Assembly: GCA_035285325.1 (NCBI GenBank)
Contig: JAYKJB010000135.1
Span: forward strand, 1 to 46,266
Origin: Candidatus Sericytochromatia bacterium
Lineage (GTDB): Bacteria > Cyanobacteriota > Sericytochromatia > S15B-MN24 > JAQBPE01
Direction of reading: 5' to 3'
Length of the DNA: 46,266 nucleotides
The notes beneath the pieces were generated by a model, which did no database searches, was not told the DNA's origin, and saw only the letters and a program-made list of their open reading frames with translations. Shown piece after piece: positions 3,951 to 46,266 of this stretch. Position 1 is the first letter of the stretch; each line of letters opens with the position of its first letter. The position numbers were made by a program, and so were the translations under genes.

Positions 3951-3979
3951 ATTATATCGCGTCACATGGGCGAAAGTCA
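3951..3979 (-). promoter_or_regulatory. Promoter for the TPR-like gene and dusB
   Basis: On the minus strand a perfect -10 box TATAAT (3951-3956) is preceded by a CTGACT-like -35 (4 of 6 to consensus) at 18-nt spacing. Transcription would start near 3944 and leave a leader of about 30 nt that contains the AGGAGAAG ribosome site of the 3496-3915 gene. Confidence 0.55.
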
Positions 3980-4261
3980 GGTGCTGGCGCCCCCGGGAGG
4001 GACGGCATTATCAGGATGCAAGGCCATGCAGGCTCTGATCCAGTGGCGCTCGAGCGCGCGTTGCTGGCTGCGCAAGCGCTGCAACATGAAATAGATGAAG
4101 TCGCGCAGCTGTTCGCTGTCGGATTCGATCACAATCTGGGTCGCGTGGGGGGTTTCGATGTGCTTGACCCGCAGCCGCTGCCGATGTTCCCTGGCCAGGT
4201 CCTCGAGCAGGATCAACTCGGCCTTGGTGCAGGTGGCGAAATAGCTCGTTGAAAGTTCCAC
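3977..4261 (-). CDS. Small hypothetical protein, 94 aa
   Basis: I do not recognise this small soluble protein. The chosen GTG at 4261 has a strong AAAGGGGG ribosome site ending 5 nt upstream. The frame is open further upstream to an ATG at 4411, but that part would be read through a transcription terminator and looks non-coding. The protein alternates helix and strand (KAELILLEDLAREHRQRL, then TQIVIESDS, then a long helix). It carries no signal peptide. It follows the small transcription unit at 4394-4751 but is separated from it by an intrinsic terminator, so it probably has its own promoter. Confidence 0.6.
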   Translation of the reverse strand: MELSTSYFATCTKAELILLEDLAREHRQRLRVKHIETPHATQIVIESDSEQLRDFIYFMLQRLRSQQRALERHWIRACMALHPDNAVPPGGAST

Positions 4262-4393: not shown

Positions 4394-4423
4394 AAAAAAA
4401 AACCCGCCCAAGTCAGGGCAGGT
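4394..4423 (-). terminator. Intrinsic terminator of the small locus
   Basis: Read on the minus strand, ACCTGCCC pairs with GGGCGGGT (8 bp with one G-U) around a 6-nt loop TGACTT, followed directly by nine T residues. This is a textbook rho-independent terminator. It lies 15 nt after the stop of the 60-aa frame at 4439 and closes the unit that starts near 4716. Confidence 0.9.
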
Positions 4424-4438
4424 CCTTCTTTCCGGCGC

Positions 4439-4621
4439 TCAGGCGGGCCTGGGTTGTTCCGTCAGTGGCCTTCCAATCAGGAAGATGCGCGGTTCCAGGC
4501 GGTCCGAGTCTCCTCGATCGCCGCGATTGGCGACCTGAGGGTGTGTTTGCGGTGTTTCGTGCGTTCCGTTGGTCTCACGGACCATTCCGGGCCTGTCTCC
4601 ATTGACAGCGTGAAACGTCAT
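4439..4621 (-). CDS. Candidate 60-aa small protein in an independent transcription unit
   Basis: This hydrophilic 60-residue frame (MTFHAVNGDRP...) starts at ATG 4621, with GAGAAAGGGA just upstream as a ribosome site. It stops 15 nt before a strong intrinsic terminator. A promoter, a leader of about 95 nt and this terminator make it a self-contained unit. Third-codon-position GC is clearly lower (roughly 60%) than in neighbouring genes, and no known motif is present. The alternative is that the locus makes a non-coding RNA of about 320 nt and the frame is incidental. I cannot decide between these from sequence alone. Confidence 0.4.
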   Translation of the reverse strand: MTFHAVNGDRPGMVRETNGTHETPQTHPQVANRGDRGDSDRLEPRIFLIGRPLTEQPRPA

Positions 4622-4716
4622 AGATCCCTTTCTCTCGAAGATAGGTGCCACAAGTCGAGATGTCGTCGGCGACACGTCAACACGCATCACGCCCCCTCGT
4701 GTGGCGTCTCTCTCAT
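4622..4716 (-). promoter_or_regulatory. Structured 5' leader of the small locus
   Basis: The leader of about 95 nt contains three short hairpins in series on the minus strand: ACGCC/GGCGT around 4692-4709, TGTCG/CGACA around 4661-4674, and TCTCGA/TCGAGA around 4633-4660. The last closes immediately before the AAAGGGA ribosome site at about 4624-4630. This arrangement suits control of translation start or RNA stability. No known riboswitch consensus was recognised. Confidence 0.4.
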
Positions 4717-4722
4717 AAACTT

Positions 4723-4777
4723 ACTTTAACCTATTTGCATCGAAATGTAAAGAGGTTTCAGGCGTTATGTAAATAGG
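4723..4777 (-). promoter_or_regulatory. Promoter with overlapping inverted and direct repeats (operator candidate)
   Basis: On the minus strand, TTTACA (4746-4751, 5 of 6 to the -35 consensus) and TAAAGT (4723-4728, 4 of 6 to the -10) are spaced by 17 nt. The inverted repeat CCTATTTGCAT (4730-4740) and ATGTAAATAGG (4767-4777) matches at 10 of 11 positions. One arm lies in the promoter spacer and the other just upstream of the -35. ATGTAAA also recurs directly at 4745 and 4767, 22 bp apart. The stretch is strongly AT-rich against a high-GC background, as expected of a regulator-binding site. Confidence 0.55.
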
Positions 4778-4784
4778 AAGAGGC

Positions 4785-4815
4785 AAAAAAAAACAGCCTG
4801 GCTTTCACCAGGCTG
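4785..4815 (-). terminator. Intrinsic terminator of tRNA-Asp
   Basis: On the minus strand a perfect 8-bp stem CAGCCTGG/CCAGGCTG with a 6-nt loop is followed by nine T residues. It begins 12 nt after the 3' end of the tRNA and is a canonical rho-independent terminator. Confidence 0.93.
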
Positions 4816-4827
4816 AATCGCATTGAG

Positions 4828-4901
4828 CGGGGCTGACGGGGCTCGAACCCGCGACCTCCTACGTGACAGGCAGGCACTCTAACCAACTGAGCTACAGCCC
4901 C
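4828..4901 (-). tRNA. tRNA-Asp (anticodon GTC)
   Basis: The 74-nt cloverleaf folds fully: acceptor GGGGCTG/CAGCCCC, D-arm GCTC/GAGT, anticodon stem CCTGC/GTAGG with loop CTGTCAC (anticodon GTC), T-arm GCGGG/CCCGT with TTCGAGC loop, and discriminator G. The CCA end is not encoded. It is read on the minus strand 59 nt downstream of the phosphatase gene. It has -10 candidates at 4921-4931 and its own terminator, so it can be transcribed alone. Confidence 0.97.
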
Positions 4902-4960: not shown

Positions 4961-5800
4961 TCAAATCTCAGCTGATGACGGCGCCAGCGTGATCAGCACC
5001 TGTAAAATCTCCGCCAACTCCTGCATGGTGGCGTTGGGAAGGTTGTCATTCATGGGAATCAGGACGAAGTTCTCCCCCTCCGCCGCGGCCACGGCCAAAG
5101 CCGGATCATTGGTGTCCATGGGCACGAGGCAGGGGATATGACGGTTGAGGCAGGCCCCGGCGAAGCCGTGATCGACGAAAGCCAGGTCGGGCGGCGACGG
5201 CAGACGGTCCAGGTAGGCGTCCATGGCCAGCGGGGTGTGAGTATGTTGCACGCTGCAGGTGTCGCTCACGCAGGCAACCGGTCCGACGAAGTCCAGGAAC
5301 CAGTCAGGGGCAACCTCCGCCCCTGGGGCCACCAGCGGAACGCGGCAACCGCCGGCTTGTAAAAACTGTGCCAGCAGGCTGTAGGCCCCCAGCATGGTGC
5401 CGGGGTGCCCGCTGCCGAAGACGACGCTTCCGCGGCGGTCACGAACGCGCCTGAGCCGCTGGGCCGCCTGCCACAGACCCCGCAGGCAAGCCCGGGGGTT
5501 GATGTAGTTGGGCCCGTGCGTGACCTCAGGGTCGCGGTTGCAGCCCGTGAAGCCAGCCACGGCCTCCAGGACCGCCAGCCGGTCCAGCCGCCCACTGCGC
5601 ACCAGGTTTTCGACCCGATGGATGCCAAGGGTGTAGAACGGGTCGCCTTCCAGCAATCGGTCGATCGCCTTCAAGTTCGCTTCCCGCGTGTGGCTGAGGT
5701 CGCGCCCCGCGATTCGCAGGGACAGCAGGCGGTCGATCAAGGTTTCGATCAGCGGGGGGGGCAACTCGACCGCGATCTCCACGGCACTGCGTTTGGGCAT
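4961..5800 (-). CDS. Phosphatase-like protein coupled to the GT20 synthase
   Basis: This 279-aa protein resembles the family annotated simply as phosphatase in actinobacteria (as I remember it, Pfam PF15698). Recognisable blocks are GSGHPG at 129-134, HTHTP at 186-190, DHGFAGA at 210-216 and TNDPA at 230-234. These give several His and Asp candidates for metal or phosphate chemistry. It is not a HAD enzyme, so it differs from OtsB. The start is ATG 5800: an AGGAGG that overlaps the TGA of the upstream synthase gene lies 6 nt before it. The neighbouring synthase would make a disaccharide phosphate, and this enzyme may dephosphorylate it. That role is inferred from context. Confidence 0.6.
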   Translation of the reverse strand: MPKRSAVEIAVELPPPLIETLIDRLLSLRIAGRDLSHTREANLKAIDRLLEGDPFYTLGIHRVENLVRSGRLDRLAVLEAVAGFTGCNRDPEVTHGPNYINPRACLRGLWQAAQRLRRVRDRRGSVVFGSGHPGTMLGAYSLLAQFLQAGGCRVPLVAPGAEVAPDWFLDFVGPVACVSDTCSVQHTHTPLAMDAYLDRLPSPPDLAFVDHGFAGACLNRHIPCLVPMDTNDPALAVAAAEGENFVLIPMNDNLPNATMQELAEILQVLITLAPSSAEI

Positions 5801-5811
5801 GGACATCCTCC

Positions 5812-7425
5812 TCACTCCGGGAAGTGCGCCCAATGGCGCTGGGCGAATGGGGTCTGGTGTTCCGGCTCTTCATGGGGCGCGAGCAGCGCCCGCAGATGGT
5901 CCTTGGCCCAGCGGTGGATCGTGTTTTGCGCGATCACGGCCCGCTGCTCCCGGATCATGTGGCGTCGCACCTCGACCGGCTGACAGAGGCCATCGTGGAT
6001 CGCCTCTGCCAGGCCGAGGATGTCGAACGGATTGACCACCCGCGCCACGGGCCCGAGTTCCTGCGCAGCCCCGGTGCATTCGGACAGCAGCAGCACCCCA
6101 CTCCGGCGGTTCAGGCAGGGCCCCTCTTTGGCCACCAGGTTCATGCCATCCGCCACTGAATTGACGATCAGGACGTCATAACGCTTCAACAGGGCGATCG
6201 CCTTGGCCTGGTCGTGGGCGAAATGCAGGTCGATCGGCTTCCAGCGCGGAGATTCCCAGCTGGCGTTGATGCGGGCGGCCGTGTGCAGCAAGTCCTCCAC
6301 GTGCGAGGCATAGGCACTCGTCGACTGACGGGACAGCGGGAGCAGCGCCAGCAACTGCACCGATCCTTGCCAGTCTGGATGCCGCGCCAGGAACGTTTCA
6401 AACGCCAACAGGCTGCGAATCAGGTTCTTGCTGGGATCGGTCCGGGCAATCATGGCCACCAGGCGCTCGGGGCGATCGCCCAGCCAGCTGTGCTCCAACG
6501 CGCGCACCTCCGGGCTCTCAGCCATCCGGCTCAGTTCGCTGGGGTCCACGGAAATTGGAAACGATCGCACCTTGACCTGGCGGCCGTTCCAGCTGATGGC
6601 GCAGCGCTGTCGATCCACCGGCACTTCCAGCAAGACCTGGCAGCAATCCAGGAAGTTCTGCACGTAGCGCGGACAATGGAATCCGACCAGATCGGCCCCG
6701 AGCAGGCGCGTCAGAATGGCCTCGCGGATCGGCGCGGGCAAGCTCCGCCAGAGGTCCGCTCCGGGCCAGGCGATGTGAGTGAAGTGGGCGATCGGAGCGC
6801 GGGGGAACGCCTCACGCAGCAGGCCCGGCAGCAGATAGAGGTGGTAATCCTGCACCAGGAAGACCGGGGCCTCAGTACTCCGTTGCACGGCCTGGGTGAG
6901 GTGCCGGGCGAACAGCCGGTTGACGGCGACATAGCCATGCAGCCAGGCTTCCCAGCGGGCCTCGTCAAAGGCGGGAAAGCTGGATGATACGCCCACATTG
7001 TGCTGGACGAACCAGAGGATGTGGTTGGCGATCGCATCGTAGTAACGCGCATATTGGGTGCGGGACGGGGTGACGAAGCTGAGCTGAAGCGGCAGTTCCG
7101 GCATCGCGGAGGAGCGCTTCAGGCCGCTCTGGCGAGCCACGCGGGCATCTGCTCGGGTCATCGCGGAGGCGACCCAGTGCAGCGGCGTGGGCGTCTGATG
7201 CACCAGTGCCAGCAGGGCCGAGACCAGGCCCCCCTGTCCGCGCTCGGCGCGCAAACGCCCTTCGCACTCGTGCCAGGCGTAGGGGCCCCGGTTGCTGGCG
7301 AGCCAGAGCTGGCGACCTTGCAGGTTCCGACTGCAGAAGTCTCTCAGGTCCGCTCGCTGCCTCTCGACAGAGGCCCCAAACCAGCTGTTGCCGCTGAATT
7401 CCGGCACGCTCATGCGCTGGGTCAT
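5812..7425 (-). CDS. Glycosyltransferase family 20, trehalose-6-phosphate synthase-like
   Basis: This 537-aa GT20 enzyme transfers a sugar from a nucleotide donor to a phosphorylated acceptor, classically glucose to glucose-6-phosphate. Motifs seen: ASNRGP (43-48), QDYHLYLLP near 190, ARTDPSKN near 323 with the donor-phosphate-binding Arg and Lys, and DGMNLVAKE near 422. The NRGP and TDPxKN wording is unlike classical OtsA (SNRLP, RLDYxKG). It recalls the VldE/validoxylamine-phosphate synthase branch, so the acceptor may not be glucose-6-phosphate. The start is ATG 7425 with GGGGAGG 5-6 nt upstream; a GTG at 7431 overlaps that site and is less likely. It is followed 11 nt later by the phosphatase gene. 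The product could be trehalose, a glucosylglycerol-like solute or another disaccharide. Confidence 0.85.
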   Translation of the reverse strand: MTQRMSVPEFSGNSWFGASVERQRADLRDFCSRNLQGRQLWLASNRGPYAWHECEGRLRAERGQGGLVSALLALVHQTPTPLHWVASAMTRADARVARQSGLKRSSAMPELPLQLSFVTPSRTQYARYYDAIANHILWFVQHNVGVSSSFPAFDEARWEAWLHGYVAVNRLFARHLTQAVQRSTEAPVFLVQDYHLYLLPGLLREAFPRAPIAHFTHIAWPGADLWRSLPAPIREAILTRLLGADLVGFHCPRYVQNFLDCCQVLLEVPVDRQRCAISWNGRQVKVRSFPISVDPSELSRMAESPEVRALEHSWLGDRPERLVAMIARTDPSKNLIRSLLAFETFLARHPDWQGSVQLLALLPLSRQSTSAYASHVEDLLHTAARINASWESPRWKPIDLHFAHDQAKAIALLKRYDVLIVNSVADGMNLVAKEGPCLNRRSGVLLLSECTGAAQELGPVARVVNPFDILGLAEAIHDGLCQPVEVRRHMIREQRAVIAQNTIHRWAKDHLRALLAPHEEPEHQTPFAQRHWAHFPE

Positions 7426-7489
7426 CGCCACCTCCCCGCCCTGCCGACCCTAGCACTGGCCGGGATGTGACTCAAGGCTTCCTCCCGTG

Positions 7490-44808: not shown

Positions 44809-46266
44809 GTGACCATGACGCTCGAACAGACGCCCCACCCCATGTGGATCAACGGCGCGCAGGCGCCGGGACAGTCCGGTCAATCTCTGGCGATCACCAA
44901 CCCCGCCACCAACGAGGCGATCGCGCAGGTGGCGGTGGCCGCCGAGGCCGACGTCGATGCTGCGGTGCAGGCCGCCCGCGCCGCCTTCGAGGGTGCCTGG
45001 GCCAAGGTGTCGGCCGCCAAGCGGGCCAAGCTGCTCGGCAAGCTGGCCGATGCGATCCGCAGCCAGCTCGACGCGCTGGCCGAGCTGGAGACGCGCAACA
45101 CCGGCAAGCCGATCAGCGCCTCCAAGGGCGAGATGTCGCACGCCGCGGATGTTTTCGACTACTACGCCGGTCTCGCCGGCAAGGTGCAGGGCGAGACGGT
45201 GCCCTGCCCGCCCAACTTCATGGCCTACACGCAGTGGGAGGCGCTGGGCGTCTGCGCGTTGATCGTGCCCTGGAACTTCCCGCTGGTCATGGCGGCCTGG
45301 AAGCTGGCGCCCGCGCTGGCGGCCGGCAACACGGTGGTGTTGAAACCGTCCGAGCTGACGCCGCTGACGGTTCTGCGTCTGGCCGAACTGGCCGGTGAGG
45401 TGGGCCTTCCCGCCGGCGTGATCAACGTGGTCAACGGCCCCGGTGAAACGGTCGGTGCCTACCTGGCCGGCCATCCGGGCATCGACAAGATCGCCTTCAC
45501 GGGCGGCACGGAGACGGGCCGCGCGATCATGTCGGCCGCTGCCAAGGGCATCAAGCGCGTCACGCTGGAGCTGGGCGGCAAGAGCCCCGGCATCGTCTTC
45601 GCCGATGCCAACCTCGACGAGGCCGTGGCCGGCTCGCTCTACGGCATCTACGACAACGCCGGTCAGTGCTGCAACGCGCGCAGCCGCGTGTTGATTCAGG
45701 AATCGATTTACGACGCCTTCGTGGCCCAGTTCGTCGAGAAGGCTCAGAAGCTCAAGCTGGGCGACCCGATGGACCCGACCACCCAGGTGGGCACGATGAT
45801 CTCGCAGGAACATTGGGCCAAGGTCGACAGCTACGTGAAGCTGGGGCAGCAGGAAGGCGCCAAGCTGCTGGTCGGCGGCGGCAAACCGGAAGGCCTGGCG
45901 GGCCAGTTCTACGCCCCCACCGTGCTGGGTGAGGTCACCAACGCGATGCGGGTTGCCCAGGAGGAGATTTTCGGGCCGGTCGTCACCTTCATCAAGTTCA
46001 AGGACGAGGCCGAGGCCATCAAGATCGCCAACGAGAGCGACTTCGGCCTGTACGGCACGGTCTGGACCCGCGACGTCGCCCGCGCCCTGCGCGTGGCCGG
46101 CAAGCTGAAGACCGGCGGCCTGACGATCAATACCCCGTTCAGCTCGTTCCTGGGCGTGCCGTTCGGCGGTTACAAGCAGTCGGGCTTTGGCCGCGAGCTG
46201 TCGCAGGCGACGCTGAAGCAGTACATGGAGGAGAAGAGCGTGCTGGTGTACACCGGCGATCGCGTC
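44809..46266 (+). CDS. NAD(P)-dependent aldehyde dehydrogenase (3' end cut by window)
   Basis: This member of the ALDH superfamily oxidises an aldehyde to a carboxylate. The frame is open to the right edge, so the C-terminus is missing; 486 codons are seen of about 490-500 usual. Present are the cofactor motifs PWNFPL, KPSE and FTGGTETG; the general-base stretch ELGGKSPG; the catalytic NAGQCCNARSR with the Cys pair; EEIFGPV; and the PFGGYKQSGFGRE end region. The overall wording suggests the betaine-aldehyde or phenylacetaldehyde dehydrogenase type, but the substrate is not settled. The start is GTG 44809 with AGGA 6 nt upstream; ATG 44815 is equally possible. Confidence 0.94.
   Translation, partial: MTMTLEQTPHPMWINGAQAPGQSGQSLAITNPATNEAIAQVAVAAEADVDAAVQAARAAFEGAWAKVSAAKRAKLLGKLADAIRSQLDALAELETRNTGKPISASKGEMSHAADVFDYYAGLAGKVQGETVPCPPNFMAYTQWEALGVCALIVPWNFPLVMAAWKLAPALAAGNTVVLKPSELTPLTVLRLAELAGEVGLPAGVINVVNGPGETVGAYLAGHPGIDKIAFTGGTETGRAIMSAAAKGIKRVTLELGGKSPGIVFADANLDEAVAGSLYGIYDNAGQCCNARSRVLIQESIYDAFVAQFVEKAQKLKLGDPMDPTTQVGTMISQEHWAKVDSYVKLGQQEGAKLLVGGGKPEGLAGQFYAPTVLGEVTNAMRVAQEEIFGPVVTFIKFKDEAEAIKIANESDFGLYGTVWTRDVARALRVAGKLKTGGLTINTPFSSFLGVPFGGYKQSGFGRELSQATLKQYMEEKSVLVYTGDRV

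Follow-up and report, generated by a model that had tools for sequence, protein, structure and literature searches.

The window, a stretch of 46,266 nucleotides that is one contig of the 3.8-Mb genome of a Candidatus Sericytochromatia bacterium (G000, in 138 contigs), carries on its minus strand what is very probably, judged by comparison with related genomes, a stand-alone gene encoding a small protein that is conserved within, and restricted to, its lineage. The gene is real and undescribed, and it adds a small protein family with clear gene anatomy from a little-known lineage next to the Cyanobacteria. Small protein families that lack a Pfam domain have been described in great number and make up most of those catalogued (GMSC, PMC11364881); new as it is, the gene is therefore of an ordinary kind, one among very many such small genes. 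The present family resembles those of GMSC in being spread over several genera and lacking a Pfam domain; here the anatomy of the gene and a cis element that is conserved are described in addition. With members of fewer than 100 codons in several genera and selection at the protein level, the group has the characteristics of a lineage-restricted smORF family.

Gene anatomy and promoter region

The small-gene unit is situated directly behind tRNA-Asp and the terminator of that tRNA, a position absent from the initial annotation of the locus. The features of the region are as follows.

4827-4901, minus strand: tRNA-Asp (GTC), the upstream neighbour (ARAGORN and Rfam RF00005), at the same position in G001
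4794-4815, minus strand: intrinsic terminator of tRNA-Asp, separating the tRNA from the small gene (terminator scan)
4746-4770, minus strand: conserved element upstream of the gene, ACATAAC-N9-CTCTTTACA, which overlaps the -35 box and is identical, with the same spacing, in G001
4730-4777, no strand assigned: the two repeats of the initial annotation, one inverted (4730-4740 / 4767-4777) and one direct (ATGTAAA, starting at 4745 and at 4767)
4723-4751, minus strand: predicted sigma-70-type promoter TTTACA-N17-TAAAGT, with TTTACA at 4751-4746
4622-4716, minus strand: predicted untranslated leader of about 95 nt, placed from promoter and start codon
4439-4621, minus strand: small ORF of 60 aa, MTFHAVNGDRPGMVRETNGTHETPQTHPQVANRGDRGDSDRLEPRIFLIGRPLTEQPRPA, with ATG at 4621 and TGA at 4439
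4394-4430, minus strand: intrinsic terminator of the small gene, a hairpin with T9 at 4394-4402
3977-4261, minus strand: downstream gene of 94 codons with no assigned function, ELSTSYFATCTKAE... / ELSTSYFATCTKAELILLEDLAREHRQRLRVKHIETPHATQIVIESD..., conserved in G001
35 sites across the window, e.g. 2255-2262, 2895-2902 and 46256-46263: HIP1 octamer GCGATCGC

The locus had been described as self-contained, and this description is borne out, since the gene has its own promoter and terminator and is kept as a unit in G001, the only other genome of the window's family (f1) in the set. The 17-nt-spaced promoter was recovered by the scan with 9 of 12 matches, the 60-codon frame is preceded by the ribosome site AAAGGG, which is weak, and the T9 terminator hairpin (47 nt) folds far better than shuffled sequences (z = -3.8). 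Transcription of the small gene would start from its own promoter and end at its own terminator. The codon use of the frame is atypical, as had been noted, with a CAI of 0.44 and a GC3 of 0.62 against 0.60–0.76 and about 0.8 in the neighbouring genes, and this CAI lies below that of every in-frame 60-codon stretch taken from those genes. Downstream, the 94-codon gene adjoins a TPR gene, shares 79% DNA identity with G001 over 209 bases and gave no match in a Pfam search. At 4961-5833 and 5812-7431 on the minus strand, a gene for a Pfam 'Phosphatase' protein (PF15698, E 7e-43) adjoins a trehalose-6-phosphate synthase-like gene; a glycosyltransferase-like gene of this kind lies beside the tRNA in G001 too.

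An operator had been proposed from the inverted repeat around the promoter. The repeat itself is present, its arms CCTATTTGCAT (4730) and ATGTAAATAGG (4767) matching at 10 of 11 positions, as is the direct repeat of ATGTAAA 22 bp apart, but the operator role is not supported. The shuffle P of the inverted repeat is 0.013 in the 100-bp promoter region, a nominal value, and 0.125 over the whole unit; inverted and direct repeats arise in approximately 1–2% of local shuffles and 13–16% of those over the whole unit, and the promoter-proximal arm ATGCAAATAGG is absent from the G001 locus. An operator for a dimeric regulator was accordingly set aside, as the repeat with its spacing is not conserved in this relative. 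The conserved putative promoter element is ACATAAC-N9-CTCTTTACA and not the inverted repeat; it occurs once per genome in G000 and G001, at the small-gene locus, even when up to two mismatches are allowed. It adjoins the -35 box and is probably a contact site for a regulator or for RNA polymerase.

Conservation of the small protein across the order

In G001 the order of tRNA-Asp, promoter, small ORF, terminator, 94-aa gene and TPR gene is kept. The small gene there has the promoter TTTACA-N17-TAATCT, an AAGGAG site, 63 codons and a hairpin followed by T8, and its start codon is fixed because an in-frame TGA immediately precedes the ATG. The two proteins share 46% identity over 54 residues (BLASTP, E = 4e-16), with three common blocks: FHAVNGD at the start, GDRG-SD midway and R-FLIG-P near the end. 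Fifteen of the 25 identical residues are encoded by different codons, and selection therefore acts on the protein; the nucleotide differences number 18, 18 and 36 at the three codon positions (36 of 72 at the third), in a frame without stops. Conservation in close relatives, on which the initial annotation had made its claim depend, is thus found for the frame and not for the inverted repeat or the hairpins.

In all, the family has members in six genomes, which represent five genera from three families of one order. Its more distant members, of 37–65 aa, belong to two other families (f3 and f4) and carry the motif N-x-G-D-R-G-x-S-D-R/Q. A profile built solely from the two f1 proteins gave weak matches in G008, G006 and G005 (E 0.004, 0.02 and 0.03), each the best or among the best in its genome, to short ORFs that end in N-R-G-D-R-G-D-S-D-R/Q and a short tail. 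Conversely, with a profile built solely from f3 and f4 the window ORF was the top match in G000 (E 0.006), and the G001 ORF likewise ranked first in G001 (E 0.02). A GDRGxSD pattern scan returned 50 matches, many of them HIP1-driven in unrelated frames, and revealed the member in G003; the pattern GTNAAYGGNGAY, tried first as a family search, had been too short to be of use. Profile–profile comparison of the window's family with f3/f4 yielded E = 4e-8, a link that rests on about 10 residues. The motif codons of G000 differ from those of G006 or G005 almost only at third positions, with five synonymous and no non-synonymous changes relative to G005. Strong ribosome sites precede the G003 and G006 members (AAAGGAGG and AGGAGG), and a hairpin with a T-rich tail follows those of G001, G003 and G006.

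No credible member was detected in G002, G004, G007, G009 or the rest of the class, and a search of 386 genomes of the phylum gave none outside the order; the profile matches obtained there were rejected, all being without a plausible gene on inspection. Phage and viral collections, including viral contigs, likewise contained no member. The earlier remark that the unit fits no known family agrees with searches of Pfam, NCBIfam, PHROGs and PDB, in which the small protein had no significant match, and with Rfam, where only the tRNA was found in the window, whether matches were taken at the gathering score or up to E = 10 (the best sub-threshold score being 18.6 bits, with the cut-off at 50).

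RNA products and shared composition as alternatives

The initial annotation had offered a small RNA or a 60-aa protein and leaned towards the RNA; the protein stands, conserved in relatives, and the RNA does not. A regulatory small RNA, with the ORF incidental, would be in keeping with the promoter and strong terminator, the whole-transcript fold (z = -2.0), the atypical codon use and a near-identical 24-nt block around codons 3–10 in G001 that can form CTGTC-loop-GACAG. It is nonetheless highly unlikely, as changes concentrate at third codon positions, the frame is kept in five genera and no Rfam match exists, while the leader, described as three hairpins, folds no better than shuffles (z = -0.9) and is not conserved. 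Because the protein is conserved, in four genera besides that of the window, atypical codon use is no evidence for an RNA; neither it nor a hairpin-rich leader marks an RNA gene, and it is the comparison of relatives that decides. A novel structured small RNA was also rejected, since the leader folds differ between relatives without being significant and a DNA similarity search with the whole unit in 17 relatives matched only the 24-nt coding block in G001. We regard as very unlikely a dual-function RNA, in which the mRNA doubles as a regulator or translation is under the control of the leader: a leader of about 85–95 nt is present in both f1 genomes and the near-identical block lies just past the start codon, but neither sequence nor structure of the leader is conserved between the two sequences available at this locus.

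An unlikely reading of the wider family is that it joins two small ORF families without common origin, whose short common motif arose by chance or from the HIP1-rich composition of these genomes. The approximately ten-fold enrichment of GCGATCGC favours GGCGATCGCGG and therefore G-D-R-G; however, G003, G006 and G008 use GGxGACCG codons without a HIP1 core, and the reciprocal profile matches rank at or near the top. Even if it were true, the window gene would keep its G001 orthologue.

Neighbours, known systems and possible role

In G003, G005, G006 and G008, the small gene invariably has a C39-like peptidase gene beside it in divergent orientation. It lies between rpe (rnc-rpe) and the divergent gene in G005 and G006 and beside that gene at a contig end in G008, and the pairing is kept in G003, where the outer neighbours have changed. 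The neighbouring proteins, in f3 and f4, are of secreted or lipoprotein type and match Pfam PF13529/PF03412 (Peptidase_C39_2/Peptidase_C39). This arrangement, seen in two of the three families, would suit a small protein that is the partner or substrate of the peptidase, for example a peptide that it processes. In the window's family such linkage is missing: the closest C39 homologues of G000 and G001 lie on other contigs, and no NxGDRGxSD ORF adjoins the C39 loci of G000, G001, G007 and G009 among the output listed. Moreover, the N-termini of the C39 proteins are of export or lipoprotein type, whereas the small protein, inspected by eye, has no signal or membrane segment and lacks leader-peptide features. 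A C39-processed precursor peptide was rejected because the members have no conserved double-glycine (GG) site. This lead is weakened because the window's family shows no such linkage and the small protein has neither an export signal nor a double-glycine site, and we consider a C39 partnership unlikely. Across the order, no partner gene conserved next to the small gene was found.

Returning to the stand-alone small protein, its product would be soluble, some 60 residues long and, by prediction, disordered, with the C-terminal motif as its conserved part. AlphaFold modeling from the six-sequence alignment gave a mean pLDDT of 57, a pTM of 0.12 and no secondary structure; the protein is probably disordered, although a low-confidence model from only six sequences is compatible with disorder and no proof of it. 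Most likely the small protein acts as an adaptor or modulator, the motif binding a protein partner. Docking of the GDRGxSD motif on a partner, taken by itself, is a tentative proposal of somewhat less than even likelihood. The fuller hypothesis of an order-specific disordered regulator that docks through GDRGxSD on a conserved target, either an enzyme or a surface system, under a dedicated promoter element and as an equivalent of small-protein enzyme control among non-photosynthetic relatives of the Cyanobacteria, is speculative and on balance improbable.

In photosynthetic cyanobacteria, control of enzymes by small proteins is established for CP12 and the glutamine synthetase inactivating factors (PMC7760959). 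These resemble the present protein in being short, theirs controlling enzymes by direct attachment, and in apparently belonging to the same phylum, but there is no sequence match and the family described here is found only in a non-photosynthetic order. CP12 is characterized by conserved cysteine pairs. Cysteine is absent from all six members of the small protein family, and identity with CP12 was rejected on this ground. The small gene resembles no specific known system among those tested. If the motif docks on a known enzyme, small-protein enzyme control would reach beyond photosynthetic cyanobacteria.

The class Sericytochromatia includes the Tanganyikabacteria (PMC8245535). The photosystem reaction centre family PF00124 was detected in none of the 12 tested genomes of the class, whereas nearly all phylum mates tested carry such genes, which indicates the phylum Cyanobacteriota and a non-photosynthetic class; the sole tested phylum mate without PF00124 belongs to f9, in a different class of 1.8–2.2-Mb genomes. 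In the window the HIP1 octamer, which photosynthetic cyanobacteria are known to carry, is over-represented, with 35 sites observed and 3.3 expected.
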